Below, one piece after another: positions 22,873-46,940 of a stretch of DNA of 64,000 nucleotides; within the stretch, counting starts at the first letter, position 1; every line of letters begins with the position of its first letter. The stretch lies in NCBI RefSeq assembly GCF_030656255.1, contig NZ_JAUSOE010000026.1, forward strand, positions 29,382 through 93,381, written 5' to 3'. Both the position numbers and the translations under genes were made by a program. The notes beneath the pieces were generated by a model that was not told the DNA's origin, did no database searches, and worked only from the letters and a program-made list of their open reading frames with translations. The DNA comes from Brevundimonas sp. GTDB lineage: Bacteria > Pseudomonadota > Alphaproteobacteria > Caulobacterales > Caulobacteraceae.

Positions 22873-23135
22873 CCCCCGGTCTTGGTCTTGACCTGCATGA
22901 ACCGGCGGAAGGCGTAGTTCCCAATTCCGAGGGACATGCCGGATAGAGCCACCACCATGTCGGCGTTGCCGGGGGTCAGGATAGCCACGACCGTCAGGGG
23001 CAACATCAGCCACATGTAGACCTTCGACAGGGACAGCATGGGGGCGCAGTCCTTCACCGGCGGTTCCAGCACGTTCAGGAACCAGAGGACGGCGAGGATC
23101 GCGGACCAGATCGCTGCAAGGACGCGCCGGATCAT
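22824..23135 (-). CDS. Small membrane protein, possible holin
   Basis: Two to three hydrophobic segments, at the end of the late block. Confidence 0.4.
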   Translation of the reverse strand: MIRRVLAAIWSAILAVLWFLNVLEPPVKDCAPMLSLSKVYMWLMLPLTVVAILTPGNADMVVALSGMSLGIGNYAFRRFMQVKTKTGGYALAPVKEEEDAAAS

Positions 23136-23542
23136 GCGCCCACCTGAAGCATTCCCGCCACCTTCGAAGGTCGGAAGCGGTTCATGATGTGGCCGTTGTA
23201 GAAGGCGCGAGAGCCGTCAGGAAGCCGGGCATAGAGGACGTTCCGGGCGAACATCTCCCGCGTCTCTTCGTAGTTCATCAACGGCCGGGTCTTGCAGAGC
23301 GTCAGGATTTCCCGGCGGAAGTTGTCCGGGCCGAGCGCGGCCACGTCCTTCTTCAATTCGGTGCATGATCCGAAGTAGCGGCGCCACAGATCGAGGCGGA
23401 CCTTGCCGTGCTTCTTTTCCTTCAGAACCTTTTGGCCGACGTAGGCGCGGCCCGTGGTCAGGTTCGTGATCAGGTATGTGAAGCCAGCGAACTTCGTCAG
23501 TTCGGCTTCGTCTACGTCGGGCGGGATGATCCAGTCTGTCAT
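23132..23542 (-). CDS. GIY-YIG-like endonuclease domain protein
   Basis: ATG at 23540-23542; FTYLITNLTTGRAYVGQK (degenerate GIY...YVG) with YFGSCTELKKDV...FRREIL. Confidence 0.6.
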   Translation of the reverse strand: MTDWIIPPDVDEAELTKFAGFTYLITNLTTGRAYVGQKVLKEKKHGKVRLDLWRRYFGSCTELKKDVAALGPDNFRREILTLCKTRPLMNYEETREMFARNVLYARLPDGSRAFYNGHIMNRFRPSKVAGMLQVGA

Positions 23543-23546
23543 CCGA

Positions 23547-23553
23547 TATTTAG
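23547..23553 (-). promoter_or_regulatory. Late-promoter-like CTAAATA (4 nt before ATG)
   Basis: CTAAATATCGG-ATG. Confidence 0.6.
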
Positions 23554-23564
23554 CGGAATGCAAA

Positions 23565-23592
23565 GGGAGGCCGGGGTTCGCCCCGGCCTCCC
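23565..23592 (-). terminator. Strong hairpin, putative terminator
   Basis: GGGAGGCCGGGG-TTCG-CCCCGGCCTCCC perfect 12-bp stem; minus-strand T-rich tail TTTGCATT. Confidence 0.6.
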
Positions 23593-23643
23593 CACACAAC
23601 ACAATCGGAGAATACCGGGAACCAATGACCCCTCCCGGCACAA

Positions 23644-23829
23644 CTATTTAGTCAGTTTGGGCAATCGGTGGGCGGCTTCGACCACCCCGGCCTTCCACGT
23701 CTCGACCCTATGGTTGATGTGCGCCGCGCCGATCCAGATGATGGCGATGCACGCGATGACGATGGCGGTCCAGCCAGCCAGCTTCGAATAGATCGGGCTG
23801 GCTGCGATTGCGTCTATGAAAGGGATCAT
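23644..23829 (-). CDS. Single-TM phage protein (lysis-associated candidate)
   Basis: MIPFIDAIAASPIYSKLAGWTAIVIACIAIIWIGAAHINHRVETWK; ATGA overlap with upstream gene. Confidence 0.45.
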   Translation of the reverse strand: MIPFIDAIAASPIYSKLAGWTAIVIACIAIIWIGAAHINHRVETWKAGVVEAAHRLPKLTK

Positions 23830-24260: not shown

Positions 24261-25366
24261 CAGACGCTCTGCATCGTGACAACGAAGCTTTCGAGGCCAT
24301 TTCCCCGGCTACCGCCGGTGTAGCCACCGCCGGTCGAACCACCCGCCGTCACCGGCGCAGTCGTGTTGTAGGTGGTATTGATCGCGGCCGGGGTTCCCCC
24401 AACTGCGCCTTGGCTCGGGAAGGTGATTTCAACGAAGCCGTTGGCCCCTTGCCCACCGAACCAATATCCACCGCCGTCATAGCGATCTTTGCAGCCGCCA
24501 CCGCCGCCGCCCGATCCATGGCCGACCCCGGCCTTCCCAGCCGATGCGCCGGTCACGCGGTCACCACCACCACCAGCAAGGCCACCGGCGCCGCCGAAGC
24601 TTCCCTGTGTCGGACCCGGCGCCCCACCGCCCCCAAAGGTCGATGCGCGGTCGTTAGTCCCACCGGGGCCAAGCTGACCCGTCAGGCCGCTCGGAAGACC
24701 ACCAGTGCCGCCTTGTGATACTTGGGCCGCCTGATTGGTGTTCCTCGACGTGATGCCGCCTTCGCCGCCGGTGGCGGTGAAGATCACGGCGCCGTTCTGC
24801 GTGACAGTCGTCTGGCCTCCCAATGATCCGTCGCGGACTGGAAGGTTGTTGCTTGGTTTGCCGTTGACGGTCGGGGTAGCAGCACCAATGCCACCTGCCC
24901 CAATGGTGAAGACGAACTTGTCGCCCGGCTTGCAGGGGACTTCGATGTAGCGGCCAAAGCCACCCGATCCGCCGCCGCCGCCGCCGCCGCCATTGCCGTA
25001 TTCGGTTCCTGCCCCGCCACCGCCGCCACCGGCGACGATCCAGTTGAACATCACGGAATTCACACCGCTCGGGGCAGTCCATGACGTTGTGCGGTCGAAG
25101 CCAAGGGTTTGGGCGTCGGGGATCGCATCACCCGGCATCGGCCAAGCCTGAAGCGTGATCGGAAGGCCGAGGGTAAGGCTGGCGCGGTTCGGACCTGCCC
25201 ACGGACGCCCTGCGGCATCACAGGCGGCTTTCACCTTGTCATACATGCTGGTCCAGTCGGCGTCGTCGATCACGGCGCCGGGCGTCACCATCGAAATGTT
25301 GGTGCCGAGAAGCGAGTTGTATGAGGTCGCCAAGGCGTTCCGGTCTGCTGCGGAAATGACGGCCAT
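24260..25366 (-). CDS. Glycine-rich tail tip/adhesin-like protein
   Basis: N-terminal domain followed by multiple polyglycine runs (GGGGGGAG, GGGGGGGGSGGFG, GSGGGGGGC). Confidence 0.65.
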   Translation of the reverse strand: MAVISAADRNALATSYNSLLGTNISMVTPGAVIDDADWTSMYDKVKAACDAAGRPWAGPNRASLTLGLPITLQAWPMPGDAIPDAQTLGFDRTTSWTAPSGVNSVMFNWIVAGGGGGGAGTEYGNGGGGGGGGSGGFGRYIEVPCKPGDKFVFTIGAGGIGAATPTVNGKPSNNLPVRDGSLGGQTTVTQNGAVIFTATGGEGGITSRNTNQAAQVSQGGTGGLPSGLTGQLGPGGTNDRASTFGGGGAPGPTQGSFGGAGGLAGGGGDRVTGASAGKAGVGHGSGGGGGGCKDRYDGGGYWFGGQGANGFVEITFPSQGAVGGTPAAINTTYNTTAPVTAGGSTGGGYTGGSRGNGLESFVVTMQSV

Positions 25367-26898
25367 TAGATTCGAGCCTTCACCACGGCCATGACCAGCG
25401 ACACGCCTTCGGAAGCCTTGTCTTCAAGAGCGCGGCCGAACACGTCGGTCGAAACAGCATCCTTCGCGGCATAGGCAACTCCGGGGATCGAAGACATCAC
25501 CAGCAGATCAAATTTCTCGACGGGGCCGAGAACCTTGACCGGGACACGGCCTTGCCATGCGACCGCCGGGTGGGATTTGTCGTCGCCAGCTTCGGCGTTT
25601 GCCAGATAGGCCGGTGCCGTCGAGACGACGCCGAAGACCGAGCCAGACCAACCGGCTTTACAGATTTCCTTGTCACCACCGAAGGACACCACGTCGCCCG
25701 GTTCAAGGTCTTCAGATGCTTCGAAGCGTTCGGCGAAGTCGGCGTAGGCCGCAGAGGTCGCACGACCGTTGAAGACGTTGGCGTTCACATTGCCGCCCGC
25801 GTCGCGCACGACCACGGTGTCAGCCGCCGTGGCGACCGAGGCGTTCTTGTTGTCGAGTTTCGCAGCGTTTGCGGCTTGAGTAGCGGAGCCAGCCGTGGTG
25901 GCCGAACCCGCCGTGTTGGCGGTGTTAGCGTTCTGGGCATTCTGTGCGTTCACCGCGTGGGTTGCGTTGTCCGCGTTCTGGGCAGTCTGTGCATTGACGG
26001 CGTTCTGGGCATTCGTCGCGTTGTTCGCGGTGTCCGCTGTGCCAGCCGAAGTCGCCTTGCCGATGAACGACGTGGCGACCAGTGCGCCCGCGCCGTTGCG
26101 CTTTGCGATGGTGTTGGGATCAGCAGCAACCGATACGCCAGCACCCGACAGGATCGCATCGACGTAAGCCTTGGTGGCGATGCCGTCCGCAGTCGTAGGC
26201 GTCGGAGCCTTGGGCGTGCCGACGAACGTGGGGCTGTCGATCTTGGCGAACAGGTCCGTCAGCTTCGAGGTCCACGGAGCGTCCGGGTGCGAAGTGATGT
26301 GAGCCGCCGTGACGGTCGTCTGACCGAAGGCAACGGTGATCACCCACAGCGGCACATAGCCCGCGCTGACCGCCGGGACAGCTTCGGAGCCGGTCGCTGC
26401 TTCGGTGCCGCGCTTCGCCTGAAGGGCAACCGTCTCGCGACGCACGGTCGGTTGAGCCGTGCCCGAGTTGGCTGGGCCAGCATACGGCTGCGCCGGGTTG
26501 GCGGCGTTGCGGTAGGGCAGAACCTTGTTGTCGGTGTCCTGCTGATCAAATGCAGCTTGAACCAGATACTTCACCGAACGACCGGCGGTCGTGGGGGCGA
26601 CGACCGGGAAAGTCGTGGTGCTGTCGATGGACCCGACCTTGACGGTCTGGTTGTTGTCGGCGGCCAGAGAGCCATAGGACGTGGCGTCGATGCTCTGAAG
26701 CACGGTGACCATGCCGGGACCGATACGGAAGTTCAGCGAAAGAGGCGAAGCGGGCGTGGCGTCCAGACCAGCGGCGACGCTGTTGGTGCCCCAGATGCCC
26801 CGAGCCAGATGCCCGATGGCACGGACCATGTTGCGGTTCGTGATAAGGATATCGGCGTCTTGGGGGATCGCCCCCGTGTAAACAATTGTGCGGTCCAT
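25366..26898 (-). CDS. Tail fiber protein with (N/T)A(x)n stalk and T4-superfamily-type C-terminal domain
   Basis: NATNAQNAVNAQTAQNADNATHAVNAQNAQNAN... repeats; C-terminus YADFAERFEASEDLEPGDVVSFGG...VFGVVSTAPAYL...AWQGRVPVKVLGPVEKFDLLVMSSIPGVA...GRALEDKASEG. Confidence 0.75.
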   Translation of the reverse strand: MDRTIVYTGAIPQDADILITNRNMVRAIGHLARGIWGTNSVAAGLDATPASPLSLNFRIGPGMVTVLQSIDATSYGSLAADNNQTVKVGSIDSTTTFPVVAPTTAGRSVKYLVQAAFDQQDTDNKVLPYRNAANPAQPYAGPANSGTAQPTVRRETVALQAKRGTEAATGSEAVPAVSAGYVPLWVITVAFGQTTVTAAHITSHPDAPWTSKLTDLFAKIDSPTFVGTPKAPTPTTADGIATKAYVDAILSGAGVSVAADPNTIAKRNGAGALVATSFIGKATSAGTADTANNATNAQNAVNAQTAQNADNATHAVNAQNAQNANTANTAGSATTAGSATQAANAAKLDNKNASVATAADTVVVRDAGGNVNANVFNGRATSAAYADFAERFEASEDLEPGDVVSFGGDKEICKAGWSGSVFGVVSTAPAYLANAEAGDDKSHPAVAWQGRVPVKVLGPVEKFDLLVMSSIPGVAYAAKDAVSTDVFGRALEDKASEGVSLVMAVVKARI

Positions 26899-26919: not shown

Positions 26920-26926
26920 TATTTAT
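26920..26926 (-). promoter_or_regulatory. Late-promoter-like ATAAATA (21 nt before ATG)
   Basis: GATAAATATAAGAAACGACAGGACAGCTA-ATG with SD AGGA. Confidence 0.55.
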
Positions 26927-27608: not shown

Positions 27609-28732
27609 CAGGACACCGCGATGCTACCGGCATGCACCGATTGGTTGGGTTCGCCGCCGAGGTTTTCCGTGTGTCCGTTCAGCAGCAGCGTATCGACGCT
27701 CTGGACGCCCTCAACCGTGTCTTGGGCGACGTGGGCCAGTCGATAGAACGACAGGGGTTCGCCGACACCGAGGGTATTGATGTGGTCTTGGATCGCAGCG
27801 GCGACCGCGCCGATCAGCGATGCCTTCGAGTAGCCGGGCTTGGCCTTGATCGTCACCGAGACGTTGGCCGTGACGACCTTCGCCGGAAGGAGGAAGAACG
27901 GCATGCTGATCGGAGCCGCAGCCTGAACGGCTGTATGGATCGCAGACATCAGGGCATCGGGCGGTGATCCTGTGCCATCGTCCACGAAGATGACGAACGA
28001 CCCTCGGGCGACGTTGCCCGCTGCATCGACGTTCTGGACGATCTTGAAGGTCAGGCCCTGTTGGACCGAAGCCACGGCGTATTCGACCGCGCCGGTCGTC
28101 GCCTGTGATCGGGTATTGATGTAGTTCGTGAAGCGCGCACGGAAGGCTTCGTCGGCTTCGCCGTCAGCCCCGTTCTGGAAACCAGCAGCGTTGGCCACGG
28201 CGTCGATGCCGGGGATGGCCGAAGAGATCATGGTGATGGTGCCAGCCCGGACATTACCCGAGGCTCCCGGCGTGGACGCAGCGACAGGGACGGTCACCGA
28301 GGCGACGCCACCGGCGATGGTGTAGCCGTTCAGGCCAGTGTCCCAACGCGGGTTCGCCGTGTCCTTGACGACGGTGAAGGACACCGTGCCGTCTACCGTC
28401 TTCACGATGGCACCGAGCGGAACCAGAGCGGTCCCGGTCGTGCTGAAGCGGCTGAAGGTGACGGCGCCCGAGGCCGGGACAGCACCGAGGCGCGTCAGGC
28501 CGAAATCGCCGAAATAGGAATCGAGGTCTTCACCCCGGCTGGTCGCGGCGCGGGTCTGGCGCAGCACGGCCAAGGTCAGGAACTGTTGCCACTCGCTGTT
28601 GAAGGCTGCGGCCTCAAGCAAGGCGCGGAACGAAGAGCCGGGCGACAGGTCGGTCAAATCAGGGCACGACTGCTGTGCGATGGCCGCAGCCGCGTTGACG
28701 ATCTGATCGTGGTTTCGAAGTTCAAGAGCCAT
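27608..28732 (-). CDS. Baseplate J-like protein
   Basis: LTDLSPGSSFRALLEAAAFNSEWQQFLTLAVLRQTRAATSRGEDLDSYFGDFGLTRL...GASGNVRAGTITM. Confidence 0.85.
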   Translation of the reverse strand: MALELRNHDQIVNAAAAIAQQSCPDLTDLSPGSSFRALLEAAAFNSEWQQFLTLAVLRQTRAATSRGEDLDSYFGDFGLTRLGAVPASGAVTFSRFSTTGTALVPLGAIVKTVDGTVSFTVVKDTANPRWDTGLNGYTIAGGVASVTVPVAASTPGASGNVRAGTITMISSAIPGIDAVANAAGFQNGADGEADEAFRARFTNYINTRSQATTGAVEYAVASVQQGLTFKIVQNVDAAGNVARGSFVIFVDDGTGSPPDALMSAIHTAVQAAAPISMPFFLLPAKVVTANVSVTIKAKPGYSKASLIGAVAAAIQDHINTLGVGEPLSFYRLAHVAQDTVEGVQSVDTLLLNGHTENLGGEPNQSVHAGSIAVS

Positions 28733-29100
28733 CAGCGGTCCCCCATTGGAATTATGGTGCGGGACGTGACGCCTTGGGCATCCCGATATTCGACCGTGGC
28801 CGTGGTCGTGCCGTTCGGTTGAGCGGAGACGGTGACCCTCGGTGCGACGGACTGGTCCACGGTGGCTTCCATCCGCATCTGCTTCAGGAAGGCCGCACGG
28901 ATGCGGTCAGCGGAGGCGGTGGAACCCACGAAGGCGGGTGCGCCGCCGCCATACTCGGGGGTCCATTGGTCATCGCCGGGATTGGTCATCAACCGGCGGA
29001 TGACGCGCTGCTGACCGTGTTCGGTGCCGCTCGTAAGCAGCAGCCCGCCGGTCGCCGAAACGGTCAAGTCTTGCCCGTGGATGTGAGAGAGGTCAGCCAT
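28732..29100 (-). CDS. Gp25/GpW-like baseplate wedge protein
   Basis: DLTVSATGGLLLTSGTEHGQQRVIRRLMTNPGDDQWTPEYGGG; adjacent gpJ. Confidence 0.7.
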   Translation of the reverse strand: MADLSHIHGQDLTVSATGGLLLTSGTEHGQQRVIRRLMTNPGDDQWTPEYGGGAPAFVGSTASADRIRAAFLKQMRMEATVDQSVAPRVTVSAQPNGTTTATVEYRDAQGVTSRTIIPMGDR

Positions 29101-29105
29101 GCCAG

Positions 29106-29112
29106 TATTTAT
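29106..29112 (-). promoter_or_regulatory. Late-promoter-like ATAAATA (5 nt before ATG)
   Basis: ATAAATACTGGC-ATG. Confidence 0.6.
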
Positions 29113-29133
29113 CGGCGGGGCTGATAAGCCGGT

Positions 29134-29475
29134 TCAGGTCGCGGGGGGCGTCGGAAGCACCGGCATCGGCGTCGGAGGCGGTGCGTTCAGGACGTAATTT
29201 AACTGCGTGGCCCGGTTCAATGCGGAGACCGACGCTTGGTCGATCTGGAAAAGCAGACCGTTAAGGCGGCCAATGTCTTCCGAGGCGATGGAGCGAGCGG
29301 CGATAGGCGCAAGCAAAGCCCGAGCGTCTTCAGCCAAATCGGATAGAGCGGCGGTCGCTTCGTTCAGAACATCCAGTTCGTAGAGGTTCTTCAGGCGTTC
29401 AGCAGCGGCGATCTGATCCACGACGGCTTGCGCCTCTTCGAGAGTTTGCGGGTAGGTTTCAGGGGAAGTTGTCAT
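29134..29475 (-). CDS. Hypothetical phage protein
   Basis: ATG 29473-29475; preceded by CTAAATATTCCC. Confidence 0.5.
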   Translation of the reverse strand: MTTSPETYPQTLEEAQAVVDQIAAAERLKNLYELDVLNEATAALSDLAEDARALLAPIAARSIASEDIGRLNGLLFQIDQASVSALNRATQLNYVLNAPPPTPMPVLPTPPAT

Positions 29476-29480
29476 GGGAA

Positions 29481-29487
29481 TATTTAG
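29481..29487 (-). promoter_or_regulatory. Late-promoter-like CTAAATA (5 nt before ATG)
   Basis: CTAAATATTCCC-ATG. Confidence 0.6.
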
Positions 29488-29927
29488 GCTGGTGGTGTCG
29501 GCCAGATGACATCGGTCGGACAGGCGAACGTCGCCGTCAGATCGCGCAACGCTTGACGGTAATCGCCCCATTCGTCCCGCTGCGCTTCGGTCAGTGGTGA
29601 GCGCGGAAACTCTGTCCAGTCAGAGGCCATCAGTAGTCGCCAGCGTTCAGCCCTGATCGCATTCCCATGCTGACAGTCAGGCGACCACGACGGCGCGGGA
29701 GCCGCTGCCTGATCGGCTGCGATGGCTTCGGCCCGGTCGATTGCCGAGAAGCAAATGATGCAACGCCAGTCGCCAACCAGTTCGTCGTAGTCGCTGGCGT
29801 CAAAGAGTTCGGAGGCCGAACGGAGGCGCCCACACGCACAAGCGAGCAGCCCCTCGGGCACTTCGGTTTCGGACGCCAGACAGTCGGCTTCGAGCGAATA
29901 GCGGGCGTAGGTGTAGAGCGTCGTCAT
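29484..29927 (-). CDS. Hypothetical phage protein (tail-fiber-assembly-like position)
   Basis: MTTLYTYARYSLEADCLASETEVPEGLLACACGRL...; preceded by CTAAATATTGGT. Confidence 0.5.
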   Translation of the reverse strand: MTTLYTYARYSLEADCLASETEVPEGLLACACGRLRSASELFDASDYDELVGDWRCIICFSAIDRAEAIAADQAAAPAPSWSPDCQHGNAIRAERWRLLMASDWTEFPRSPLTEAQRDEWGDYRQALRDLTATFACPTDVIWPTPPA

Positions 29928-29932
29928 ACCAA

Positions 29933-29939
29933 TATTTAG
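29933..29939 (-). promoter_or_regulatory. Late-promoter-like CTAAATA (5 nt before ATG)
   Basis: CTAAATATTGGT-ATG. Confidence 0.6.
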
Positions 29940-32900
29940 GAGCGAGGACGGATTGTGACGCTGGACACTTGGCCGTTCGGCGTGGCCGAGCGGAGGCCCC
30001 CACCGGACCCTTGAGTTTGCCAATCCACGGCGAGGCTTCCGACATAAGATTCAGCATAGGTCTTATACGTCACCGCAACGCCAATATGAGAGATATTGGT
30101 CCCGGTCGGAACTGATTGCGACACGTCGAAGTATTGGTCAGAATAGCCGGTCCCAGACATATACAACGGCTCAATGTAGATCGTATCGAGTTCGACCCAC
30201 GCGCCGCCATTCCATCCGAAAACGGTGATGTAGGTTGATCCATTCAGAGTCTCGGATGGATCGTCGTAAATGTATTCAGGCTGGTTCGGCGGCGTGTTGA
30301 ACCGGTTCCGGTAGATGCGATTGTAGCCGTTGACGCGGACGTTGTAGCCGCCCGTCGTGGAGCGACCGCCGTATTGGTCGATAAACATGTGATGGCTGGT
30401 CGGGCCGTTGGCGTTCGCACCGAGCCAGCCGGTCCCGAGGTTCGCTGGTGTGGCTGGCGTCGAGATTTTCAGACGGGCGATGAAGCCAGTCGGCGACAGG
30501 TTTTCGGCATACAGGCTGTAGGTCTCGCCCGCGTTGAGCGGAGCGAGGTTGTTTCCGGCGAAAGCCAGCGTCGGGTTGTTCCCGAGGTCAAAGCCAAAGC
30601 TGACGTTCTGGCCATCGGTGACGTTCAGATCGAGAGGTTGAACAGCAACCTTCCACGGAACACCCGAGCCAAGCGTGATCGACGTGCCAACAGCCAGACG
30701 GTCCACGAAGGCCGACTTCATACGGACGCCGCCGTTTCGGATTTCGAAAGGCGCGATCCCGGTGTTTTGGTCAGGTGACCAAACTCGCAGGACACCAGCT
30801 TGGAAGTCGATGGCCGAGACCGGCGTGTCAGTGCCGTCAGAAGCATGGATTTTCATGCCCGCGATTTGCGTGCCAGCTTGGACCGTCAGGCCAGCCGTAG
30901 CCGAAATCCTACCGTTGAGAGTGGCGGTCGCGCTCTCGGTCTGCGTGACACGGGCAGTCGTCTGAACGTCAGAGGCTTCTGACGTGTATTGCGTGGCCGG
31001 AAGGCCGCCCATTTCCACTTTGACCCGGCGGACACCCAGCGCGTTGATGCCGGTCCCGCCGAAGACAGCACGGGCTTGCGCCTTGACTGCGTTTGAGGGC
31101 GCCAGCGTCGCGATGGCGTGTTCTTGGAGACGAGATGGCGCGTTGCTGAAATCGTGCTGGCTATAAATCGGCTTTTCGGGACCATCACCGCAGACGTTGC
31201 CCGCACTGTCGAAGAAGATGAGGTCCAGATACGCGACATGCCCCGACGACGCGAAAAGGATCGTGTCGCCGCTGATGGTGTAATAGTTGCTCCCGAACAC
31301 GTCGAACTTCGGGAAGTTGACAACATGCGTCTGATCGCCCGGATTGTAGGCGATGGCATGCGGCCCCCACCCATTATTCGCGACGAACAGACCAGCCGGT
31401 CCAGTGATACCGGTTAGGCCGTTTTCGAAGCTACCATTCGGGCAAAGGTTGTTCCGGGTCTGAAGTGTCGCCTGAAGATCGTTGACGCGGGTCGCGGTCG
31501 CGAATGTCCCGTTAGATGTGACACTTTCGACCTCGCCGATCCGAGCGTTCGTGTCGAAAGCCGTAGCTTCGTTCGACCAGTTGGTGGCGACAGACCCATA
31601 GTTAGCTTTGACGCGCGTGAAGTGGACTTGGGTCGCCGTGCCCTTGCCGATAACCACGCGGAAGTGCGTCGTTCCTGCGGGAGCGACGTTGTTTTCCGAT
31701 TTGGCGCGGACGCCCCATGTCGTAGGGATTGCGACGTGCCCGGCTTGTGCGTAGCCGGGGAGCCATTGGATTGAGGCGTTGCCGTCGCCGCCGCCACGGT
31801 CGCCCTCGAAGGATAGGCTGACCGCATCGCCGGAATTGATCGGGTAGAAATCCGACGCGATGTAGCCAACCGCGCCCTTGATCCACCCAATCGTTCCAAG
31901 GGTGGCGTGATAGTAAGTTCCGATGTCGCTGGCCGGTCCCGCGCCGTCACGTTCCCATTTAGTCAGGCCGTTCGTAAAGTCGCTGTTCTTGATCAGGTTC
32001 GGAAGCGAGCGTGTAGCCGCTTCCATGGTGTTCAGGCGCAGCCCCGAGGCGTTGTCGCCATCGACCGTGGCCTGACGCATTTCAGCCAGCAGCGCAGACA
32101 CGGACGGCTTACCGTTCCGAGCGTTCGTGATTTCGGCCTTCAGCGTGTTGTATTCGGTGGCATCGACTTTCAGGTTCAGCCCGTCCGTAACGGTCTGGCG
32201 CATGCTGGTAAGCTGCGAGCCAAGAGAGCCAGAGCCATTTCGGGCGCCTTCCACTTCGGTCTTGATCGAGTTGAAGGACGACGCTGCGGCGTAGTTCGCG
32301 GGCAAGTTGAGGATCACCGTGTCGGTGTTGTCCATCCGAGCCTTCAGGGTGGTCCCGACCGAGGCCACACCCACCTGAATCTCCGCTGCGGTGGCGATGC
32401 GGATTTTGGCTTCGTGGAAGACAATCGACTTCGCCGCGACTGACCCAAATCCAGACCAACCGCCCATTGCGTAGATGTTGAACTGTCGAACCGTCACTGG
32501 TGCATTGAAGAGCAAGCTGTAGCGGTAGGTGCGACCGACAGAGCCGCTGCCCTGAACGGCGCCGGTGCTGTCAGGCTGTTCGGCGAAACGAAGCTGTGCG
32601 TTCGACTGTTCGACGCCATTGCTATCGAAGCATTGGATCAGGACGCCAGAGCCGGGGAAAGAACCGGCCTCAAGAGTGACCGTGGATTCGACGACGTGCC
32701 AGCCGGGGCTTCCCGACGTGACGTTTTGAGAGATGCCGCGATCTTGACCAGCAGCCAGATTAAAGCGGAGGCCAAACGATGAGACGAGGCCGTTGGCCAG
32801 AGAGTTGAGACTGCCCGAAGACCAGTCGTTCCAGTTGGCCGGAATTTGGCCGGTGACGACGCCACGGGAGAAGTCCGCGTTCCGGTTCAGGGCATTTGTA

Positions 32901-35641
32901 GCAGTCGCCTCAAGACGGTCGGTGCGAACTGCATCAGTCTTGCCAGCCAGACCATCGGTCGTAGTTTGGCGCATTGATGTGAGTTGCGCCCCGAGGGAGC
33001 CAGAGCCGTTGCGCGCCCCTTCAACTTCAGACCTGATCGAGTTGAAGGTTGATGCCGCCGCATAGTTTGCGGGCAGATTGACGATGACGTTTTCGGTCGT
33101 GCTGATCCGGGCGTTCGTCTCGAAGACGGTGCCCTCGTCGGACCAGTTTGTCGCATAATTCCCGTAGTTGACCTTGACCCGAGCCATGTGGACTTGGGTC
33201 GTCGCGCCTCGATAGAAAACGATGCGATAGCCGGTCGTGCCCGGCGGGGCGTAGATGCCTTCAAGTTTCGAACGGAAGCCCCACGATCCCGCAAAAGGGA
33301 CGGATTGGGAGTTGGCGAACGACGGCAGCCACTGGATTTGGGCATAGGCCGTGCCGCCGCCGCCATCGCTCTCGAAAGACAGCGAGAGCGGGTCGCCAGC
33401 GTTGATGTTGTAGTTGGCCGTGTAGACGTATTCGGCGCCCATAAAATAGGCGATGGAACCGAGAGTCGGGTGCAGATAGCGAGTGAAGGTGCCCGGCTGA
33501 TCCTTGCCCCAATCCGACACTTCCCCAGATGCAGTGAGGCGAGAGAAATCACCGTTTTTGAGCAGGTTGGGGAGCGACCGTGCTGCGACTTCGAGGCTAT
33601 CCACGCGAGTCGCCGCAGCCTTGCCAGCCAGACCATCGGTCGTGGCTTGGCGCATGGACGACAGTTCGGCCGTCAGGTTCGACTTGCCATTGCGGGCGTC
33701 CACCAACTCTGTGCGGAGTGTGTTGACCTCGATGGCCGTCGCCTTCAGTGCGAGGCCGTCACTGGTTGCCGTCCGCATGCTGGTCAGCAGGGCGTTCAGG
33801 TTCGCAGCCCCGTTTCGGGCACCTTCGACCTCTGCCTTGATCTGACCGAACTCCGACGCTGACGCCTTCAGCGCGAGGCCATCAGACGTGGCGGTTCGCA
33901 TGCTTGTCAGTTGGGCGGTCAGGGTGGGCGAGCCGTTTCGAGCGTCGCTGATCTCGGTGCGAAGGGTGTTCACCTCGGTCGCGGTCGCCTTCAGGGCGAG
34001 GCCATCAGACGTGGCGGTTCGCATCGCCAGCAGTTGGGCAGAGAGGTTGGGCGAGCCGTTCCTCGCCCCTTCAACCTCTGCCTTCAGAAGGTTCAGATCG
34101 GAGGCCGAAGCCTTCAGGTTCAGGCCGTCAGACGTGGCCGTCCGCATGCTCTGAAGCTGGGCACCGAGAGTGCCCGAGCCGTTCCGTGCGCCTTCGACTT
34201 CCGTTTTGATCGCCGTGAACTGTGAGGCCGCTGCATAGTTGTTCGGGAGGTCTGCAAGCACCTGATCGTGGGTCAGGATTTTGGCGGTCGCCGCCGGGAC
34301 GCGCGGGTCTTCGTATGGGGTCCACGACGTGCCGTTGAACTGGCTGACGACGTTGTTGTTGGCCGTGTTGATCCAGAGGGCGCCGGTGATCGCGCCGGTT
34401 GGAGCCGTGGTCTGAACGTAGGTCGGCGGACGTGCATCAACGACAGCGACCCACGCGCTCCCGCTCCAACGGAACATCTTGTTGTTCTGATCGGTGCGGT
34501 AGAGGACATCTCCCACGACCAGCGTGCCAACCGGGACGTTCGTCGGGTTCGTAGTCTGTGCGTAGGTCTTGTTCTTTGCCCGAGCTTCGGCGGTCAGTGC
34601 GTTGACGGAATCGACGGTCGCCTTGCTGCTGGCCAGATCGCTGATGGCTGATGTGTGCTGAAGGCTCTTCGCCAACAGACCCGTGTCAGGTGTGTTCAGA
34701 GCGGCTTCAACGACATCGAGGTCTTGGGCGACGGCCAGTGTCGCGCTGGCTGCGGTCTGTTGCGCCGACGTGATGCGGGCATTGGTCGTGACTGCGTTGG
34801 CCGTGAATTCCGACCGGGTTTGGTCGATGCGGGTGGATAGGGCTTTGTCAGCAGTGGCGGTCGCGTTGGCCAAGCTGATGACGCTGGCCGAAACATCCCC
34901 GACGCCGGTTTCGATGGCGGCTTCGACAAGATCGAGACGTTGCGAGGTGACCTGACTATTGGTCGCGACCGTGGTTTTCAGGGTGGCGACTTCACCGCGA
35001 AGGCCGTTGGTTTCGTCACCGAGGACGACCTGAATGGCGTCGATCTGCGTGGCCTGATCGCCTTGGGCGTCAGCAATCTCGATCACGCGGGCGCCGAGCG
35101 TCCCGTAGAGCGGGTCGTATTCGCCGATGATTTCGCGGAAGCCTTCGACGGCCTCCGACAAGCGTTGGTCGCTCTCGATGTAGAAGCGTTCGGCGTCGGC
35201 CAGCTTCGTCTCTGCAAGGGCCATACGGTCGGCCAGCATGACTTCGGCTTCTGCAATTAGGGCTTCGGCTCTTGCCCGTGCGTCCTCAATCGCAGCCGCG
35301 ATGTCGTCGGGAATCGTGGCTTCGCCGGTGCCGTCAGAGACTTCGAAGCCATCTTCGGTCAGGGTGCCCGAGCCGGGCACGACAGCGATCCATTCCGAAC
35401 CGGTCCACAAATTCAGGGAACGGTCGCGCTGGTCGAACCAGAACTGGCCCTGAAGCGGGTTGACCGGCGGAAGATCGTTGGCGAAATTCTCGACGCTATG
35501 AACCCAATTCTGGTTCATCGCCTCGATCCAGTCTTCAGCCCCCTCCCCGATCAGAGTCAGAGGGCTGGCTTGGGTGTCGATTGCGCCAAGACCGAGGACG
35601 GCGACCAGGTCACCGTTGGTTTTCGAAATAGAAGTCGCCAT
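29936..35641 (-). CDS. Giant (1901 aa) tail fiber / host-recognition protein
   Basis: Many ~36-aa repeats (ExxxARNGxxxLxxxLxxMRxATxDGLxxKA), two related NLIKNxDF... beta-sandwich-like modules. Confidence 0.8.
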   Translation of the reverse strand: MATSISKTNGDLVAVLGLGAIDTQASPLTLIGEGAEDWIEAMNQNWVHSVENFANDLPPVNPLQGQFWFDQRDRSLNLWTGSEWIAVVPGSGTLTEDGFEVSDGTGEATIPDDIAAAIEDARARAEALIAEAEVMLADRMALAETKLADAERFYIESDQRLSEAVEGFREIIGEYDPLYGTLGARVIEIADAQGDQATQIDAIQVVLGDETNGLRGEVATLKTTVATNSQVTSQRLDLVEAAIETGVGDVSASVISLANATATADKALSTRIDQTRSEFTANAVTTNARITSAQQTAASATLAVAQDLDVVEAALNTPDTGLLAKSLQHTSAISDLASSKATVDSVNALTAEARAKNKTYAQTTNPTNVPVGTLVVGDVLYRTDQNNKMFRWSGSAWVAVVDARPPTYVQTTAPTGAITGALWINTANNNVVSQFNGTSWTPYEDPRVPAATAKILTHDQVLADLPNNYAAASQFTAIKTEVEGARNGSGTLGAQLQSMRTATSDGLNLKASASDLNLLKAEVEGARNGSPNLSAQLLAMRTATSDGLALKATATEVNTLRTEISDARNGSPTLTAQLTSMRTATSDGLALKASASEFGQIKAEVEGARNGAANLNALLTSMRTATSDGLALKATAIEVNTLRTELVDARNGKSNLTAELSSMRQATTDGLAGKAAATRVDSLEVAARSLPNLLKNGDFSRLTASGEVSDWGKDQPGTFTRYLHPTLGSIAYFMGAEYVYTANYNINAGDPLSLSFESDGGGGTAYAQIQWLPSFANSQSVPFAGSWGFRSKLEGIYAPPGTTGYRIVFYRGATTQVHMARVKVNYGNYATNWSDEGTVFETNARISTTENVIVNLPANYAAASTFNSIRSEVEGARNGSGSLGAQLTSMRQTTTDGLAGKTDAVRTDRLEATATNALNRNADFSRGVVTGQIPANWNDWSSGSLNSLANGLVSSFGLRFNLAAGQDRGISQNVTSGSPGWHVVESTVTLEAGSFPGSGVLIQCFDSNGVEQSNAQLRFAEQPDSTGAVQGSGSVGRTYRYSLLFNAPVTVRQFNIYAMGGWSGFGSVAAKSIVFHEAKIRIATAAEIQVGVASVGTTLKARMDNTDTVILNLPANYAAASSFNSIKTEVEGARNGSGSLGSQLTSMRQTVTDGLNLKVDATEYNTLKAEITNARNGKPSVSALLAEMRQATVDGDNASGLRLNTMEAATRSLPNLIKNSDFTNGLTKWERDGAGPASDIGTYYHATLGTIGWIKGAVGYIASDFYPINSGDAVSLSFEGDRGGGDGNASIQWLPGYAQAGHVAIPTTWGVRAKSENNVAPAGTTHFRVVIGKGTATQVHFTRVKANYGSVATNWSNEATAFDTNARIGEVESVTSNGTFATATRVNDLQATLQTRNNLCPNGSFENGLTGITGPAGLFVANNGWGPHAIAYNPGDQTHVVNFPKFDVFGSNYYTISGDTILFASSGHVAYLDLIFFDSAGNVCGDGPEKPIYSQHDFSNAPSRLQEHAIATLAPSNAVKAQARAVFGGTGINALGVRRVKVEMGGLPATQYTSEASDVQTTARVTQTESATATLNGRISATAGLTVQAGTQIAGMKIHASDGTDTPVSAIDFQAGVLRVWSPDQNTGIAPFEIRNGGVRMKSAFVDRLAVGTSITLGSGVPWKVAVQPLDLNVTDGQNVSFGFDLGNNPTLAFAGNNLAPLNAGETYSLYAENLSPTGFIARLKISTPATPANLGTGWLGANANGPTSHHMFIDQYGGRSTTGGYNVRVNGYNRIYRNRFNTPPNQPEYIYDDPSETLNGSTYITVFGWNGGAWVELDTIYIEPLYMSGTGYSDQYFDVSQSVPTGTNISHIGVAVTYKTYAESYVGSLAVDWQTQGSGGGLRSATPNGQVSSVTIRPRS

Positions 35642-35645
35642 CCAG

Positions 35646-35652
35646 TATTTAG
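35646..35652 (-). promoter_or_regulatory. Late-promoter-like CTAAATA (4 nt before ATG)
   Basis: CTAAATACTGG-ATG. Confidence 0.6.
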
Positions 35653-35672
35653 GATGACGGCCCTATTGCTGG

Positions 35673-36302
35673 TCAGTCGGGCTTGTTCGTCTTCAGCGTG
35701 ATCTTCGCGCCAGCCCCACCCGTTGGGTGTTGGTGGTCGTTGTAGTTCTTACGCAGTTCGGACAACTTGCCTTCGTGGTCGATGATCTGCTGTTTCGAAC
35801 GAACGTCGCCGTCTACGGTCGCTTTTCCCTCGCAGGTCAGGTCGCCGGTGATATGCAGATCGCCTTCAAGGTTGATCTTGTCGGCCTTCATCAGCACAGA
35901 GCCATCGGCGTTCATGCGGACGAACTGGCCACGCGGACCCACCCACAGACCTTCGCCCGACTTCAGTTCGGCTTCGTCGCCCCTGATGCTGTCGGCCTTC
36001 TGCGGCGGACGGGCGGATTGGGAATGGATGAAGCCCGTGATGACCATCGAGCCGCTGTCGCCCTCTTGGGGCACGACAAGGCACTGATCGCCAACGGTGG
36101 GCGCCACGCGCATGGCGCCGGAACCCACGGCCACGGTGCTGATCGGGAGCCAGCCGGTCAGGATGCCATCCGGCTCGATCATCACCTTCGCGAGGAAGGT
36201 CTTGGGATCATAGCTGGCGATGGTGCCCGCGCGTGGCTGGCCCTGCGTCTGCTGCTGCTGTGCGACGCGGCCGAGGACGGAGTTTGTAAGTTGGTTGCTC
36301 AT
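35673..36302 (-). CDS. Baseplate assembly protein V / tail spike (gpV-like)
   Basis: GTIASYDPKTFLAKVMIEPDGILTGWLPISTVAVGSGAMRVAPTVGDQCLVVPQEGDSGSMVITGFIHS. Confidence 0.85.
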   Translation of the reverse strand: MSNQLTNSVLGRVAQQQQTQGQPRAGTIASYDPKTFLAKVMIEPDGILTGWLPISTVAVGSGAMRVAPTVGDQCLVVPQEGDSGSMVITGFIHSQSARPPQKADSIRGDEAELKSGEGLWVGPRGQFVRMNADGSVLMKADKINLEGDLHITGDLTCEGKATVDGDVRSKQQIIDHEGKLSELRKNYNDHQHPTGGAGAKITLKTNKPD

Positions 36303-37474
36303 TGCGGGGATGCCTCCCCGTTGGGTTCAGGCGTGTTTTTGGCGCGGACCTGCATGGTCCACCCGCCGGTCGCATCCATCCCAAGATCGACGCTATCGAC
36401 GTAATACAGTTCGTCTTGGGCGCGCTCGACGCCTTGGATCGTCACCTTCTGGCGAGGGTCCAGACCGAGGGTGCCGGGCAGCTCGAATTCGATGGTCCAC
36501 TGCTGACGGCTGATCTGTTCATGCAGCTTGTTGGCGCGGACCTGCGCTTCAGCCTGTGTCAGGTTGGGGAAGGTGTAGTGGTATTCAGTGACTTCATCAC
36601 CGGAGCCGCCGCCCGAGGTCGCGTTGCGGCCACGCGCGGGCTTCTTGCTCTCGGTCTTGGCCTCATACCGCTTGCCGTGGCCCGAGTTCCACGAACGGAC
36701 GATGACCTTGATGTCCTTGGCCAGCGCGAGGTTGCGGGTCAGGCTGAAGTTCTTGACGTTCGACTGTGCGGCGACGGTCATCTGGCCCGAGCGTTCGGGT
36801 TCGGCCAGCGTGATGACGAAAGCCTCTGACCGGTCTTCCGACAGCGGTTTGAAATAGAGCGTGTCGCCCGATACCCAAGCGTCGAAACCCTCTTGCCGGG
36901 CAAGGTAGGTGATCGTGTCCCATTCGGTCTGGGCACGGCTGAACTCGCCGTTGTTCACCGACACATGGTCGCGCTCGTAGTAGGTGCCAGCGCGGGTCGT
37001 GGTCGCGGTCACGTCGGCGGTCAGGCCGTGGCGGGCGGCCAGCGTGGTGACGATTTCCGAGGCGGTCTTGTTGTGGAAGGCTTCGCGGGTCTTGGCGTCG
37101 ATCATCAGGGCGGTTTTGTCCCGCCCCTTCAGCGACAGCATGCCGCCTCCCCACGTCATGTCGATATCATCGACCTTGCCCTTGAGGACGGTGCGCCAAG
37201 CAATCTCGCCCTCTTCCGGCTCCCGGCCCATCTGGACTTCGACATCGACCTTATCTTGGGCGAGCCACCACGACGGCCCTTTGGCTCCGACGAACCAAAG
37301 GGCGAAAGTCATGTCGAAGGTATCGGCATGGAAGTAGTTGTTTTTGCGAACATTGGCGGCCTTCAGGCCGGGCAGTTCTTCGCCGTTGATCAGAACGCGA
37401 GCGCGCGGGCGACGGAGGGCTGGCCCCCGCCCCTGCACAACGATTGAATCAAGCTGACTTGTGGTTCCATCCAT
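36299..37474 (-). CDS. Late control / baseplate hub protein (gpD-like)
   Basis: ALMIDAKTREAFHNKTASEIVTTLAARHGLTADVTATTTRAGTYYERDHVSVNNGEFSRAQTEWDTITYLARQEGFDAWVSGDTLYF. Confidence 0.8.
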   Translation of the reverse strand: MDGTTSQLDSIVVQGRGPALRRPRARVLINGEELPGLKAANVRKNNYFHADTFDMTFALWFVGAKGPSWWLAQDKVDVEVQMGREPEEGEIAWRTVLKGKVDDIDMTWGGGMLSLKGRDKTALMIDAKTREAFHNKTASEIVTTLAARHGLTADVTATTTRAGTYYERDHVSVNNGEFSRAQTEWDTITYLARQEGFDAWVSGDTLYFKPLSEDRSEAFVITLAEPERSGQMTVAAQSNVKNFSLTRNLALAKDIKVIVRSWNSGHGKRYEAKTESKKPARGRNATSGGGSGDEVTEYHYTFPNLTQAEAQVRANKLHEQISRQQWTIEFELPGTLGLDPRQKVTIQGVERAQDELYYVDSVDLGMDATGGWTMQVRAKNTPEPNGEASPQ

Positions 37475-37478
37475 CCAA

Positions 37479-37485
37479 TATTTAG
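37479..37485 (-). promoter_or_regulatory. Late-promoter-like CTAAATA (4 nt before ATG)
   Basis: CTAAATATTGG-ATG. Confidence 0.6.
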
Positions 37486-37664
37486 GTGGACGGGACCGTT
37501 GGGGCGTTCGCGTCACGCTCGGGGATTTTGACGTTCGACGGTGCCCGGATCACGGCGTCGAAGAAGCCGTTGGCTTCCATGATCCGTGCCCATTGGCGGG
37601 CGTCCCCGAGTTCCTTGGCGGCGATGCGGGACACGCTGGTCCCCGAGACAGTGACGGTCTTCAT
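37482..37664 (-). CDS. Tail protein X-like (LysM-like)
   Basis: MKTVTVSGTSVSRIAAKELGDARQWARIMEANGF; immediately upstream of gpD-like. Confidence 0.6.
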   Translation of the reverse strand: MKTVTVSGTSVSRIAAKELGDARQWARIMEANGFFDAVIRAPSNVKIPERDANAPTVPST

Positions 37665-37667
37665 AGA

Positions 37668-38171
37668 TTAGGTCCGATCAAAATGAGCGAACTCGCCGAA
37701 GTATACTTTGGCGGCGCCCTTGTAGGCTGCTGCGGCTTCTTGAATGGTTTCATAGGAGCCGAGATTGCGATTGCGGCTGTTGACCGCGATGAACGCGATC
37801 CACTTCTTCGCCTTGGCGCACCAAGAGACGCCTTTGACGCCCGAACTGTTGGTGCTTGGCATCTTCGAGTTGCCGATGTTCTGCGAGGGGGTGGCGATCC
37901 GCAAGTTCTTGATCCGGTTGTCGTTTCGGATGCGGTTGATGTGGTCGAGGTGACCGTTGGGCATCTCGCCATGCACGAAGAGCCATGCCAGCCGGTGCGC
38001 TTTGAAATTGACCCCGCCGATGCGGATGATGGTGTAGCCGAGGCTTGACCAGCCCGCCTTGTCACCCGCCTTCGCCTTGCCGCCCCGATCTACTGCCCAA
38101 TGGAAGTCGCCGGTCTTTGGGTCGTATGTGAGAAGTTTAGACGCTTCTTCGAGAGTAATGGTGTTTGTCAT
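37668..38171 (-). CDS. HNH homing endonuclease with AP2 domain
   Basis: AHRLAWLFVHGEMPNGHLDHINRIRNDNRIKNLRIATPSQNIGNSKMPSTNSSGVKGVSWCAKAKKWIAFI; own motif plus SD AAGGAGGT. Confidence 0.9.
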   Translation of the reverse strand: MTNTITLEEASKLLTYDPKTGDFHWAVDRGGKAKAGDKAGWSSLGYTIIRIGGVNFKAHRLAWLFVHGEMPNGHLDHINRIRNDNRIKNLRIATPSQNIGNSKMPSTNSSGVKGVSWCAKAKKWIAFIAVNSRNRNLGSYETIQEAAAAYKGAAKVYFGEFAHFDRT

Positions 38172-38202: not shown

Positions 38203-38209
38203 TATTTAT
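38203..38209 (-). promoter_or_regulatory. Late-promoter-like ATAAATA (31 nt before HNH ATG)
   Basis: ATAAATACTTG...AAGGAGGTCCACAAA-ATG. Confidence 0.55.
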
Positions 38210-41546: not shown

Positions 41547-42067
41547 TTAGTCCTTTTGCTTCCAGCGTCGGCTTGTCCAGTCGAACTCTCCCCCTTCGAG
41601 TTCTCCGAAGATCACTTCGAAGGCGAGTAGTTCAGTCGCGTCCAACTCCATTGCTTCATGAAAGGGAACGCCGTTCCTGACGCAGTTCAGGGCTGCGCGA
41701 AGCTCGACGTTCCCGGTTAGTTTTTTGCCGCAGCCCAAACGTCGTCTTGGTTTTGGGGAGCGAGGCTTTCCGCCCAACGGGCGACGGCTTCCATGCCCGC
41801 GTCGTCCAGTCGGCCGATCAGGGATTCCACCGCCTCGACGGACTTCGGGAACTGCATGGGGGTGTCGTCAATCTGGCGCACCGAGGCGGCCAGCGTGGCG
41901 TAGATCATGTAGGGCTGGTTCGAAGCGGCATCGCCACAGGCGCGGGTCAGTTTCGCGCCTTCGAGCGTGTTCAACTTCTTGATATGAAGTTCGCGGCCAT
42001 CAGAGTCTTTGATGATGGTGCTATTTGAGGATGCGACAGCAACAGCGGTGGGAATCTTGTCAGTCAT
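41547..42067 (-). CDS. Tail assembly chaperone -1 frameshift fusion (gpGT-like)
   Basis: A_AAA_AAC heptamer (plus 41720-41726), fusion reads ...WAAAKKLTGNVELRAALN...; downstream 7-bp stem. Confidence 0.85.
41717..42067 (-). CDS. Tail assembly chaperone (gpG-like, zero-frame product)
   Basis: Upstream of TMP; ends at slippery AAAAAAC-TAA. Confidence 0.75.
   Translation of the reverse strand: MTDKIPTAVAVASSNSTIIKDSDGRELHIKKLNTLEGAKLTRACGDAASNQPYMIYATLAASVRQIDDTPMQFPKSVEAVESLIGRLDDAGMEAVARWAESLAPQNQDDVWAAAKN
41720..41726 (-). promoter_or_regulatory. -1 programmed ribosomal frameshift slippery site A_AAA_AAC
   Basis: Minus strand GC A AAA AAC TAA CC GGGAACG...CGTTCCC. Confidence 0.88.
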
Positions 42068-42127: not shown

Positions 42128-42134
42128 TATTTAG
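42128..42134 (-). promoter_or_regulatory. Late-promoter-like CTAAATA upstream of tail chaperone
   Basis: CTAAATACTGG, about 60 nt before ATG. Confidence 0.5.
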
Positions 42135-42181
42135 CGAGGACATGCTGTGCCGCGTCTGTTGTCCCCGGAGAAGGACACTCG

Positions 42182-42188
42182 TATTTAT
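42182..42188 (-). promoter_or_regulatory. Late-promoter-like ATAAATA upstream of tail chaperone
   Basis: ATAAATACGAG. Confidence 0.45.
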
Positions 42189-42218: not shown

Positions 42219-42225
42219 TTAAATA
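42219..42225 (+). promoter_or_regulatory. Late-promoter-like TTAAATA (5 nt before moron ATG)
   Basis: TTAAATAACACT-ATG on plus strand. Confidence 0.5.
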
Positions 42226-42230
42226 ACACT

Positions 42231-42461
42231 ATGTTCAAGAAGCTGCTTTACATCGCAGGGGCTGTCGGCGTGTTGGTCGGAGGGATCACACTCGCCACGA
42301 TCTCGCAGCCCCATGAATTCACGTCGGTCCAAGACCCACGGGGGCCAATCACTGCGCCACTCGCCCCGGCCAATCCCCAACAACCCGAGGCGGGCAAGGA
42401 CATGCCTGACTGGTGGTATGACCCGGCTGGCATCCGCTGCGCCGGTCCCAAATGCGACTGA
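42231..42461 (+). CDS. Small exported/membrane moron protein
   Basis: MFKKLLYIAGAVGVLVGGITLA...; opposite strand within tail block. Confidence 0.6.
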   Translation: MFKKLLYIAGAVGVLVGGITLATISQPHEFTSVQDPRGPITAPLAPANPQQPEAGKDMPDWWYDPAGIRCAGPKCD

Positions 42462-43317: not shown

Positions 43318-44844
43318 TTAGCGGACGAGGACGACGGTCTGACCGCCTTCGACGTTGATCGTGAGGTAGCGCGTGATCGACTGGAATCGGACCTGCACAT
43401 CGACTTGGAGGTAGCCGAGGCTGGTGCGCGATTGCGGGTTGTTCGTCTTGTCGCAGAAGACGACGTAGGGCGGGTTGCCGTCTTCGTCGTTCGACAGGAT
43501 GCCAGCCGAGACGCAGTTGCCGAGGAAGGTATCGAGACGGGTCGTGACATTGCGGAACGTGTCCGCGTTGATCACGCCACCGATTTCGCTGCCCATGCCG
43601 GAATCAACCGTCGAGGCGAGGTAGTCCATGACGCGGGCGTAGTTGTCGCCGTTGGTGTCCGGGTTGCTGGACGTGTTCACGCCACCAGCGACCGACCAGT
43701 AGTTGCCGCCCGGCGAAGGGAAGGCGATCACGTCGATGCCGTTGCGGAACATGTCCGCCTTTTCGGCGCGGCTGTATTGCGAGGCCGAACCTTGGGCCAG
43801 ACCCGACTTCTGCGATCCGAGGATGCCAGCCAGCGGCTTGTTCAGGGCCGAAGCCTCGGGCGACATGCCGACCAGCTTGCCAGCGTCGAACGCGGACGGG
43901 TTGACCAGACGGGTGACGCCGTTGGTCAGGTCGCGCCAGTAGATGTGGTCACCAAGCAGGTAGTGGACCCATGCGCTGTCGATGGACGCCTTGGCGGTCT
44001 TGGCTTGGGCGATGGTTTGGCCAGCCGGGCCAGCGACGACCATGACGGTCCCCTCTTCGCGGCCGAACGCCTCGATGTTGGCCAGAGCCGAACCGTCGAT
44101 GTCTGCGAGGACAGCGACAGCAGCGGCGGTATCGCGAAGCTGATACATGCCGGTGCGCGATGCGCCGTCCGTGCCGATCAGGTCAGCAGCAGCAGTCGTG
44201 CCGTCAGCACCGCCGGTGAAGGGTTGAGCCGTCGCGGTCAGAGCCGGGATCGCGGTGGGGGTGCCACCAGCCGAAGCGATGACCAGTTCCGAAGCGGCGC
44301 GGACACCGGCGCCGGTGTTGATCGCGGCGATCAGGGCGGGCCAGAAATCAGCCACGACGTTCGACAAGTTGTCGAACTCTTCGGTCTTGGACAGCTTGCC
44401 CGAGTTCAGGACGGCGCGGACGGTGTTGGCCTTGGAGCCAGCCGTGAAACGGATGGTCAGGTCGTTGCCGAGCGAACCGACATACTTGCCGGTCAGGGTT
44501 GCGCCCGAGGGGCCAGCAGTCGCGGCAACAGCGCAGGTGGCTGCAGCGGCGCCGGTGCCAGCAGCACGGACGACGATGAAGCTTTCAGCAGCTTGAGCGG
44601 CGGCGACGGCGCAAACCGTGCCAGCGTCAAACTGACGGTTCATCACCGGGCCGAAGATGGCCAGATAGCCAGCCATATCGCAGGTGACGGGGACATTGAC
44701 CGGACCCCACGAAGCCGAACCGACGACGCCGAGGATATTGGTCGGGACGCCATTCAGAGAACGGGCACGCGGCTTGCGGATCGTGGTGTAAACACCGGGA
44801 ACGCCAAGTGCGTTCATGTTCAGAGTGCCTTCGAGGACAATCAT
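43318..44844 (-). CDS. Contractile tail sheath protein
   Basis: GVPGVYTTIRKPRARSLNGVPTNILGVVGSASWGPVNVPV typical sheath N-terminus. Confidence 0.9.
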   Translation of the reverse strand: MIVLEGTLNMNALGVPGVYTTIRKPRARSLNGVPTNILGVVGSASWGPVNVPVTCDMAGYLAIFGPVMNRQFDAGTVCAVAAAQAAESFIVVRAAGTGAAAATCAVAATAGPSGATLTGKYVGSLGNDLTIRFTAGSKANTVRAVLNSGKLSKTEEFDNLSNVVADFWPALIAAINTGAGVRAASELVIASAGGTPTAIPALTATAQPFTGGADGTTAAADLIGTDGASRTGMYQLRDTAAAVAVLADIDGSALANIEAFGREEGTVMVVAGPAGQTIAQAKTAKASIDSAWVHYLLGDHIYWRDLTNGVTRLVNPSAFDAGKLVGMSPEASALNKPLAGILGSQKSGLAQGSASQYSRAEKADMFRNGIDVIAFPSPGGNYWSVAGGVNTSSNPDTNGDNYARVMDYLASTVDSGMGSEIGGVINADTFRNVTTRLDTFLGNCVSAGILSNDEDGNPPYVVFCDKTNNPQSRTSLGYLQVDVQVRFQSITRYLTINVEGGQTVVLVR

Positions 44845-45023
44845 TAGACAGTTTCCTTCTGTTCTTCTTGTTTTTGGGCGGCGGCTTTACGGGCCTTTGC
44901 CTTCTTGACCGCCACCACGAACATCGGGCGCGTTTCTTGGTATTCGGCGACAAGCGCAGGATCGGTGATGTGGTCACCGGCCTTGAAGCCGTCGAAATCG
45001 GTTAGAACAACCAGTTCAAACAT
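44844..45023 (-). CDS. Small hypothetical phage protein
   Basis: MFELVVLTDFDGFKAGDHITDPALVAEY; SD AAAGGAT. Confidence 0.5.
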   Translation of the reverse strand: MFELVVLTDFDGFKAGDHITDPALVAEYQETRPMFVVAVKKAKARKAAAQKQEEQKETV

Positions 45024-46541: not shown

Positions 46542-46928
46542 TTAGACGACCCAATGAACGCCGCCGGAGCGGAGGCCGGGGCCGGGCTTCAACTGAAGGA
46601 ACTGGCACAGACGCTTGCGCCATGCGTCATACAGGGCGGTGCGCTCTGCAATCTCGGTCTTGTTCCGACGCAGCGGGCCAAGCACGTCGTCTTCGAGGTT
46701 GTCAGCAGCAGCAAGAATCGCCTCTTCAAGGCCCTTCAGAGCCATGAGATATTTGCGAACCTGAACGCCCTCTTCCTCGGTCAGAAGGCCCATGCGGTAT
46801 TCCAGCACTCCTTCGTCGTTGACCAAGACGCCGAACAGCATGCTGTTCATGTCGATGCCACGGGGCGGATAGCCCATGAACCGGCGAATGTCGGTCTTTT
46901 CGGAGTCGGTAAATACTGCTGCGCTCAT
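46542..46928 (-). CDS. Head completion/connector-like protein
   Basis: Small ORF following capsid block; preceded by ATAAATACTGCT. Confidence 0.45.
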   Translation of the reverse strand: MSAAVFTDSEKTDIRRFMGYPPRGIDMNSMLFGVLVNDEGVLEYRMGLLTEEEGVQVRKYLMALKGLEEAILAAADNLEDDVLGPLRRNKTEIAERTALYDAWRKRLCQFLQLKPGPGLRSGGVHWVV

Positions 46929-46933
46929 AGCAG

Positions 46934-46940
46934 TATTTAT
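46934..46940 (-). promoter_or_regulatory. Late-promoter-like ATAAATA (5 nt before ATG)
   Basis: ATAAATACTGCT-ATG. Confidence 0.6.

Follow-up and report, generated by a model that had tools for sequence, protein, structure and literature searches.

The late promoters of phages T4 and Aeh1 are built around a short element upstream of the RNA start. The T4 sequence TATAAATA spans −13 to −6, and the Aeh1 sequence CTAAATA begins at −12 (PMC1524935); T4 late promoters have no −35 element (PMC7892883). Most middle and late mRNAs of the Thermus phage phiYS40 are leaderless (reviewed in PMC3594737), and in Deinococcus-Thermus a −10 element lying about 6–7 bp before an ORF gives rise to leaderless mRNA (PMC12340547). 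Caulobacter crescentus has 375 leaderless mRNAs, which are translated equally to others (PMC4117421), and Zymomonas mobilis has 119, leaders of ≤5 nt being counted as leaderless by operational definition (PMC7566282). By analogy with the Caulobacter and Zymomonas figures, the host of the prophage described here is expected to be permissive for leaderless translation.

The stretch of DNA that we analysed (the window) is 64 kb long and runs to the end of a contig of 93,381 bases. Its gene content reveals a contractile-tail prophage from about 22.8 kb onward, truncated by the contig end; the missing part is covered by the related prophages G629 and G285. The minus strand encodes portal, scaffold, major head protein, sheath, tape measure, hub, spike and a 1901-aa fibre, together with gp25-like and gp6/J-like baseplate proteins, and beyond the virion genes there are a UmuDC-like pair, a serine recombinase and early genes. 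G285, a same-genus genome assembled as one contig, harbours a close relative of this prophage, in which a T4-type terminase large subunit gene is present. The sheath and hub of G628, a viral contig, are about 40% identical to those of the window prophage. The nearest structural genes are those of the Komagataeibacter phages phiKX1 and phiKX2, and no T4 core replication genes were seen in scans of the prophage. It belongs to a temperate myophage lineage of about 45–50 kb outside the T4 group (Straboviridae). We use the terms 'late' and 'induced lysogen' as gene content suggests them.

Our best reading of the sequence, to which we give a probability of about 0.77, is that the late promoters of this prophage have the form [CA]TAAATA and yield leaderless late mRNAs.

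Abundance and placement of TAAATA

The window contains 19 copies of TAAATA where 1.87 are expected, and none of 100 shuffles reached 19. Sixteen copies lie on the late (minus) strand and one precedes a plus-strand moron (Table 1); plus-strand copies at 46910 and 54929 are probably due to chance. CTAAATA was found 10 times on the late strand of the prophage and 7 times in the remaining genome (about 3.26 Mb). The pattern TAAATA-N4/5-ATG has 11 matches in the 3.35-Mb genome, 10 of them inside the prophage, and the reversed pattern, which served as a control, has none in the whole genome. The TAAATA promoter regime is nearly absent from host genes.

A preliminary description of this DNA had listed eight minus-strand genes and the plus-strand moron with the motif 4–5 nt before ATG. 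Every motif–ATG sequence that it quoted is present in the window, and all nine genes have the short spacer, which is 5 nt at the moron and at five minus-strand genes and 4 nt at the remaining three. The tenth member of the prophage set, absent from that description, is a ninth minus-strand case in which TCCG separates TAAATA from the ATG of a 23-codon ORF before the portal gene. The counterpart of this MRFL... ORF in G628, MRFLQSPEPRNLYHTVEDQ, lies in the same place, 5 nt after TAAATA. It is possible that the ORF encodes a leaderless leader peptide coupled to portal translation.

Table 1. TAAATA sites and associated features of the prophage (window coordinates)
Feature	Coordinates	Strand	Context
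TAAATA	51422–51427	−	5 nt before ATG 51416; gene 51081–51416, 111 aa, first late gene
TAAATA	51061–51066	−	4 nt before 23-codon ORF ATG; 85 nt before portal ATG
Predicted leaderless leader-peptide ORF MRFLTPSRASVGMSTERELLQAL	50985–51056	−	Ends just upstream of portal gene SD
TAAATA	49404–49409	−	48 nt before scaffold gene 48813–49355, with SD
TAAATA	46934–46939	−	5 nt before ATG 46928; gene 46542–46928
TAAATA	45087–45092	−	63 nt before gene 44844–45023 (upstream of tail sheath gene), with SD
TAAATA	42220–42225	+	5 nt before ATG 42231; 76-aa moron 42231–42461
Tandem TAAATA, upstream copy	42182–42187	−	Gene 41717–42067
Tandem TAAATA, downstream copy	42128–42133	−	Within inverted repeat; 60 nt before gene 41717–42067
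TAAATA	38203–38208	−	31 nt before HNH endonuclease gene 37668–38171, strong SD
TAAATA	37479–37484	−	4 nt before ATG 37474; baseplate hub gene 36299–37474
TAAATA	35646–35651	−	4 nt before ATG 35641; 1901-aa fibre gene 29936–35641
TAAATA	29933–29938	−	5 nt before ATG 29927; 147-aa gene 29484–29927
TAAATA	29481–29486	−	5 nt before ATG 29475; 113-aa gene
TAAATA	29106–29111	−	5 nt before ATG 29100; gp25-like baseplate gene 28732–29100
TAAATA	26920–26925	−	21 nt before gene 25366–26898, SD AGGA
TAAATA	23645–23650	−	Two predicted hairpins downstream, without ORF
TAAATA	23547–23552	−	4 nt before ATG 23542, homing-endonuclease-like gene; terminator-like hairpin just upstream

Relatives were gathered through their baseplate, hub and sheath proteins. 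TAAATA is enriched in the window prophage, G285, G629, L008, L022, L139 and the divergent G628, and not in phiKX1, the same-family genome G151 or most of about 190 viral and genome loci. The promoter regime therefore appears to be lineage-specific, on a virion module that is shared. The moron site is retained in G285, G629 and L008, and the 113-aa gene was not found in G285.

Several further features of these sites were noted. The tandem copies at 42128–42187 are 54 nt apart, and G628 has a pair 56 nt apart with a different stem sequence. The HNH gene and the homing-endonuclease-like gene (23132–23542) each form a cassette with a TAAATA promoter of its own; the latter gene is replaced in L022, where an unrelated one follows the 23552 promoter, again at 4 nt. 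In a stretch missing from the window, L015 has TAAATACTCC-GTG at position 8610 (G285 genome about 1528609, plus strand), which may mark a leaderless GTG start or have arisen by chance. An excess of TATAAT-N12/13-ATG among relatives was set aside, as the matches look like repeated conserved internal coding segments and not promoters.

Promoter or translation signal

To look for an initiator we used the 24 TAAATA sites without an ATG at 4–5 nt. A pyrimidine–purine step is the usual transcription start signal. Such a step was present at positions 5/6 after TAAATA in 19 of these sites, compared with 2–7 of 24 at other positions. With sites taken as independent this gives p = 4e-8, a value that is optimistic because some of the 24 are orthologs; with one site per orthologous promoter the step remained in roughly 14 of 19 (counted from the site list). 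The RNA start is therefore predicted to lie 6 nt after the last A of TAAATA, and the geometry of the T4 and Aeh1 elements predicts the same start base (PMC1524935). No −35 sequence is conserved, the information content upstream being near zero except for C/A at −1. Several long-leader sites have NTG at +3; a GTG start there was rejected, the resulting ORFs being unconserved among relatives and the 5/6 step conserved.

The element is also retained between relatives. TAAATA is kept at all 15 window–G285 promoters that were compared, including those with flanks 47–62% identical. In G628 it is found at eight orthologous gene junctions, with flank identities of 0.47–0.70 against 0.57 for random pairs. 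The gp25-like gene begins 5 nt after the element in the window and 25 nt after it in G628, and the MADL start is common to both. A distance that varies while the N-terminus stays constant is expected of a promoter but not of a signal for translation.

These results bear on the proposal that TAAATA is instead an AU-rich translation-initiation element, such as an S1 site replacing the SD, with promoters further upstream. The motif does occupy the exact SD position in ten cases, before genes without an SD. Half of the sites, however, lie 21–114 nt away from genes with an SD of their own, spacing differs at orthologous sites, and the step at 5/6 has no translational role. One site (23645–23650) precedes hairpins and no gene, and terminator-like hairpins are found directly upstream of some others. 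We consider a translation element very unlikely. The preference for a promoter voiced in the preliminary description is supported by the step, the absence of a −35 sequence, the retention at orthologous junctions and the 23645–23650 site. The association with terminators invoked at the same time holds for some sites: terminator-like hairpins are found ahead of the 23552 site and of an orthologous promoter at G628:5807, but most sites are without one. The G628 ortholog of the 46934–46939 site, also with a 5 nt spacer, has such a hairpin directly upstream.

The stretch at 23553–23644 (minus strand), between two TAAATA sites, comprises about 75–90 nt predicted to fold into two strong hairpins (MFE −50 kcal/mol), and G285 and G629 retain it with paired changes. 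It may encode a small RNA transcribed from a late promoter up to a terminator.

Leader length and the start codon

At 5 nt spacers the predicted start base is the A of ATG, and a pyrimidine stands ahead of that A in 9 of 11 nonredundant sites; at 4 nt spacers the A comes one base earlier. The claim that the mRNA begins at the AUG itself thus fits the 5 nt sites as it stands, whereas the 4 nt sites need a shift of one base, strict T4 geometry placing the RNA start there at the U of AUG. The spacer switches between 4 and 5 nt at the orthologous promoters 51427, 35651 and 29938: it is 4 nt at the G285 orthologs of the first (flank 50% identical) and third, and 5 nt at the fibre gene in G285 and G629.

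It is conceivable that the element is a promoter from which RNA starts slightly upstream of or inside the start codon, giving leaders of 1–4 nt or heterogeneous length and some proteins begun at internal codons. The misfit of 4 nt spacers with a fixed 6-nt start would be explained in this way, as would three G628 sites with spacers of 3 or 7 nt. The 5 nt sites nevertheless fit exactly, the N-termini of the gp25-like protein and of the product of gene 46542 are similar in G628, and leaders of ≤5 nt still count as leaderless by the operational definition (PMC7566282). A shifted start is therefore improbable, though less so than a translation element.

The distribution of SD sequences was as previously described. 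At short spacers the best duplex reaches only 0 to −1.5 kcal/mol, and at long spacers (21, 31, 48, 60/114, 63 and 85 nt) it is −4.0 to −11.8 kcal/mol (Mann–Whitney p = 9e-5), although the missing SD at short sites is forced by geometry, because TAAATA occupies the SD position, and is therefore weak evidence taken alone. In G628 only two of 10 coding-strand sites have ATG at 4–5 nt, so a leaderless arrangement is optional.

Under our preferred reading, [CA]TAAATA would be the −10-like element of temperate myophage late promoters. RNA polymerase carrying a phage or host specificity factor would recognise TAAATA alone, without a −35 element, in parallel with T4 gp55–RNA polymerase at CTAAATA/TATAAATA, and would start RNA 5–6 nt past the last A. 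Evolution would have put the ATG on the RNA start point at roughly half of the sites, so that there the first cistron becomes a leaderless mRNA with initiation at its 5′-terminal AUG; at the others an identical promoter would produce a normal leader with an SD.

The recognising factor and comparison with known systems

A gp55 profile (T4, Aeh1 and phiM12) searched against all ORFs of the window, G285, G629 and G628 gave a best E value of 2.7, and no sigma factor emerged when most of the early and unknown prophage genes were scanned against Pfam and PHROG. Neither a gp45 clamp nor a gp33 coactivator was seen in Pfam/PHROG scans of most genes of the prophage, which is truncated by the contig end, and of its relatives. 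A highly diverged phage factor may read TAAATA. We tentatively propose, at a little under even odds, a temperate lineage whose own late-promoter factor, unrelated in sequence to gp55, reads bare TAAATA and drives a late regulon with many leaderless structural genes, among them fibre, hub, baseplate and moron genes. Slightly less probable, and compatible with the leaderless layout, is recognition by a sigma factor of the host, acting alone or with an activator from the phage. No phage sigma factor was found and the host genome has 12 sigma-70-family matches above the Pfam cut-off, but CTAAATA is nearly absent from that genome, and the late region has no excess of sigma-70-type promoters.

Two early proteins were considered. 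The 122-aa protein at 55501–55869, HTH-like by eye, was rejected as the factor, being absent from G629, which retains the motif. AlphaFold prediction of a conserved 188-aa early protein (59946–60512) from a three-row alignment gave a pLDDT of 33 and was unusable. An operator-like repeat, TGTGCCAGCATACATRTGCCAGCACATACG, is present at 59919 and 61865 (plus strand) upstream of the early genes 59946 and 61889, with a near copy in G285; it looks like a repressor-controlled early regulon.

If our reading is correct, T4-late-like promoter logic operates in a small temperate phage without recognisable gp55, and the prophage points to a transcription factor yet to be found. One 6-bp element and its spacing would serve as both promoter and translation start, and the phage could join new genes to its late regulon through about 11 bp (promoter plus ATG spacing) with no ribosome-binding site. 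The prophage would also offer a compact, naturally occurring setting in which to test how alphaproteobacteria translate abundant virion proteins from leaderless mRNAs. In the literature searched, which included few subscription papers, there was no description of this combination in a temperate phage without recognisable gp55, nor any report of CTAAATA from a phage of this kind.

The prophage shares with the T4-type late promoters (T4 TATAAATA, Aeh1 CTAAATA) the same core and a −10-like element alone with no −35, and its predicted start, 6 nt past the last A, is placed as theirs is (PMC1524935, PMC7892883). T4-type systems, however, have gp55, gp33 and gp45, none of which was found by the profile search and scans of the prophage and its relatives. 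The nearest ORF ATG is 14 nt from the element in T4 and 18 nt in Aeh1, neither having such a site within 10 nt of an ORF ATG, whereas the spacing at the short prophage sites is 4–5 nt. phiYS40 is a different phage from a different host phylum, and the prophage appears to mix leaderless and leadered messages from one element. The Deinococcus-Thermus motif is TANNNT and acts host-wide, whereas TAAATA is phage-specific and nearly absent from host genes. In Caulobacter crescentus and Zymomonas mobilis, alphaproteobacterial ribosomes translate many leaderless mRNAs, but these come from host genes, and the prophage would represent a phage late regulon whose members share a single promoter element. 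Precedents exist for every piece: the element in T4-like phages, the leaderless mRNA in phiYS40, and the −10 sequence adjoining ORFs in Deinococcus.
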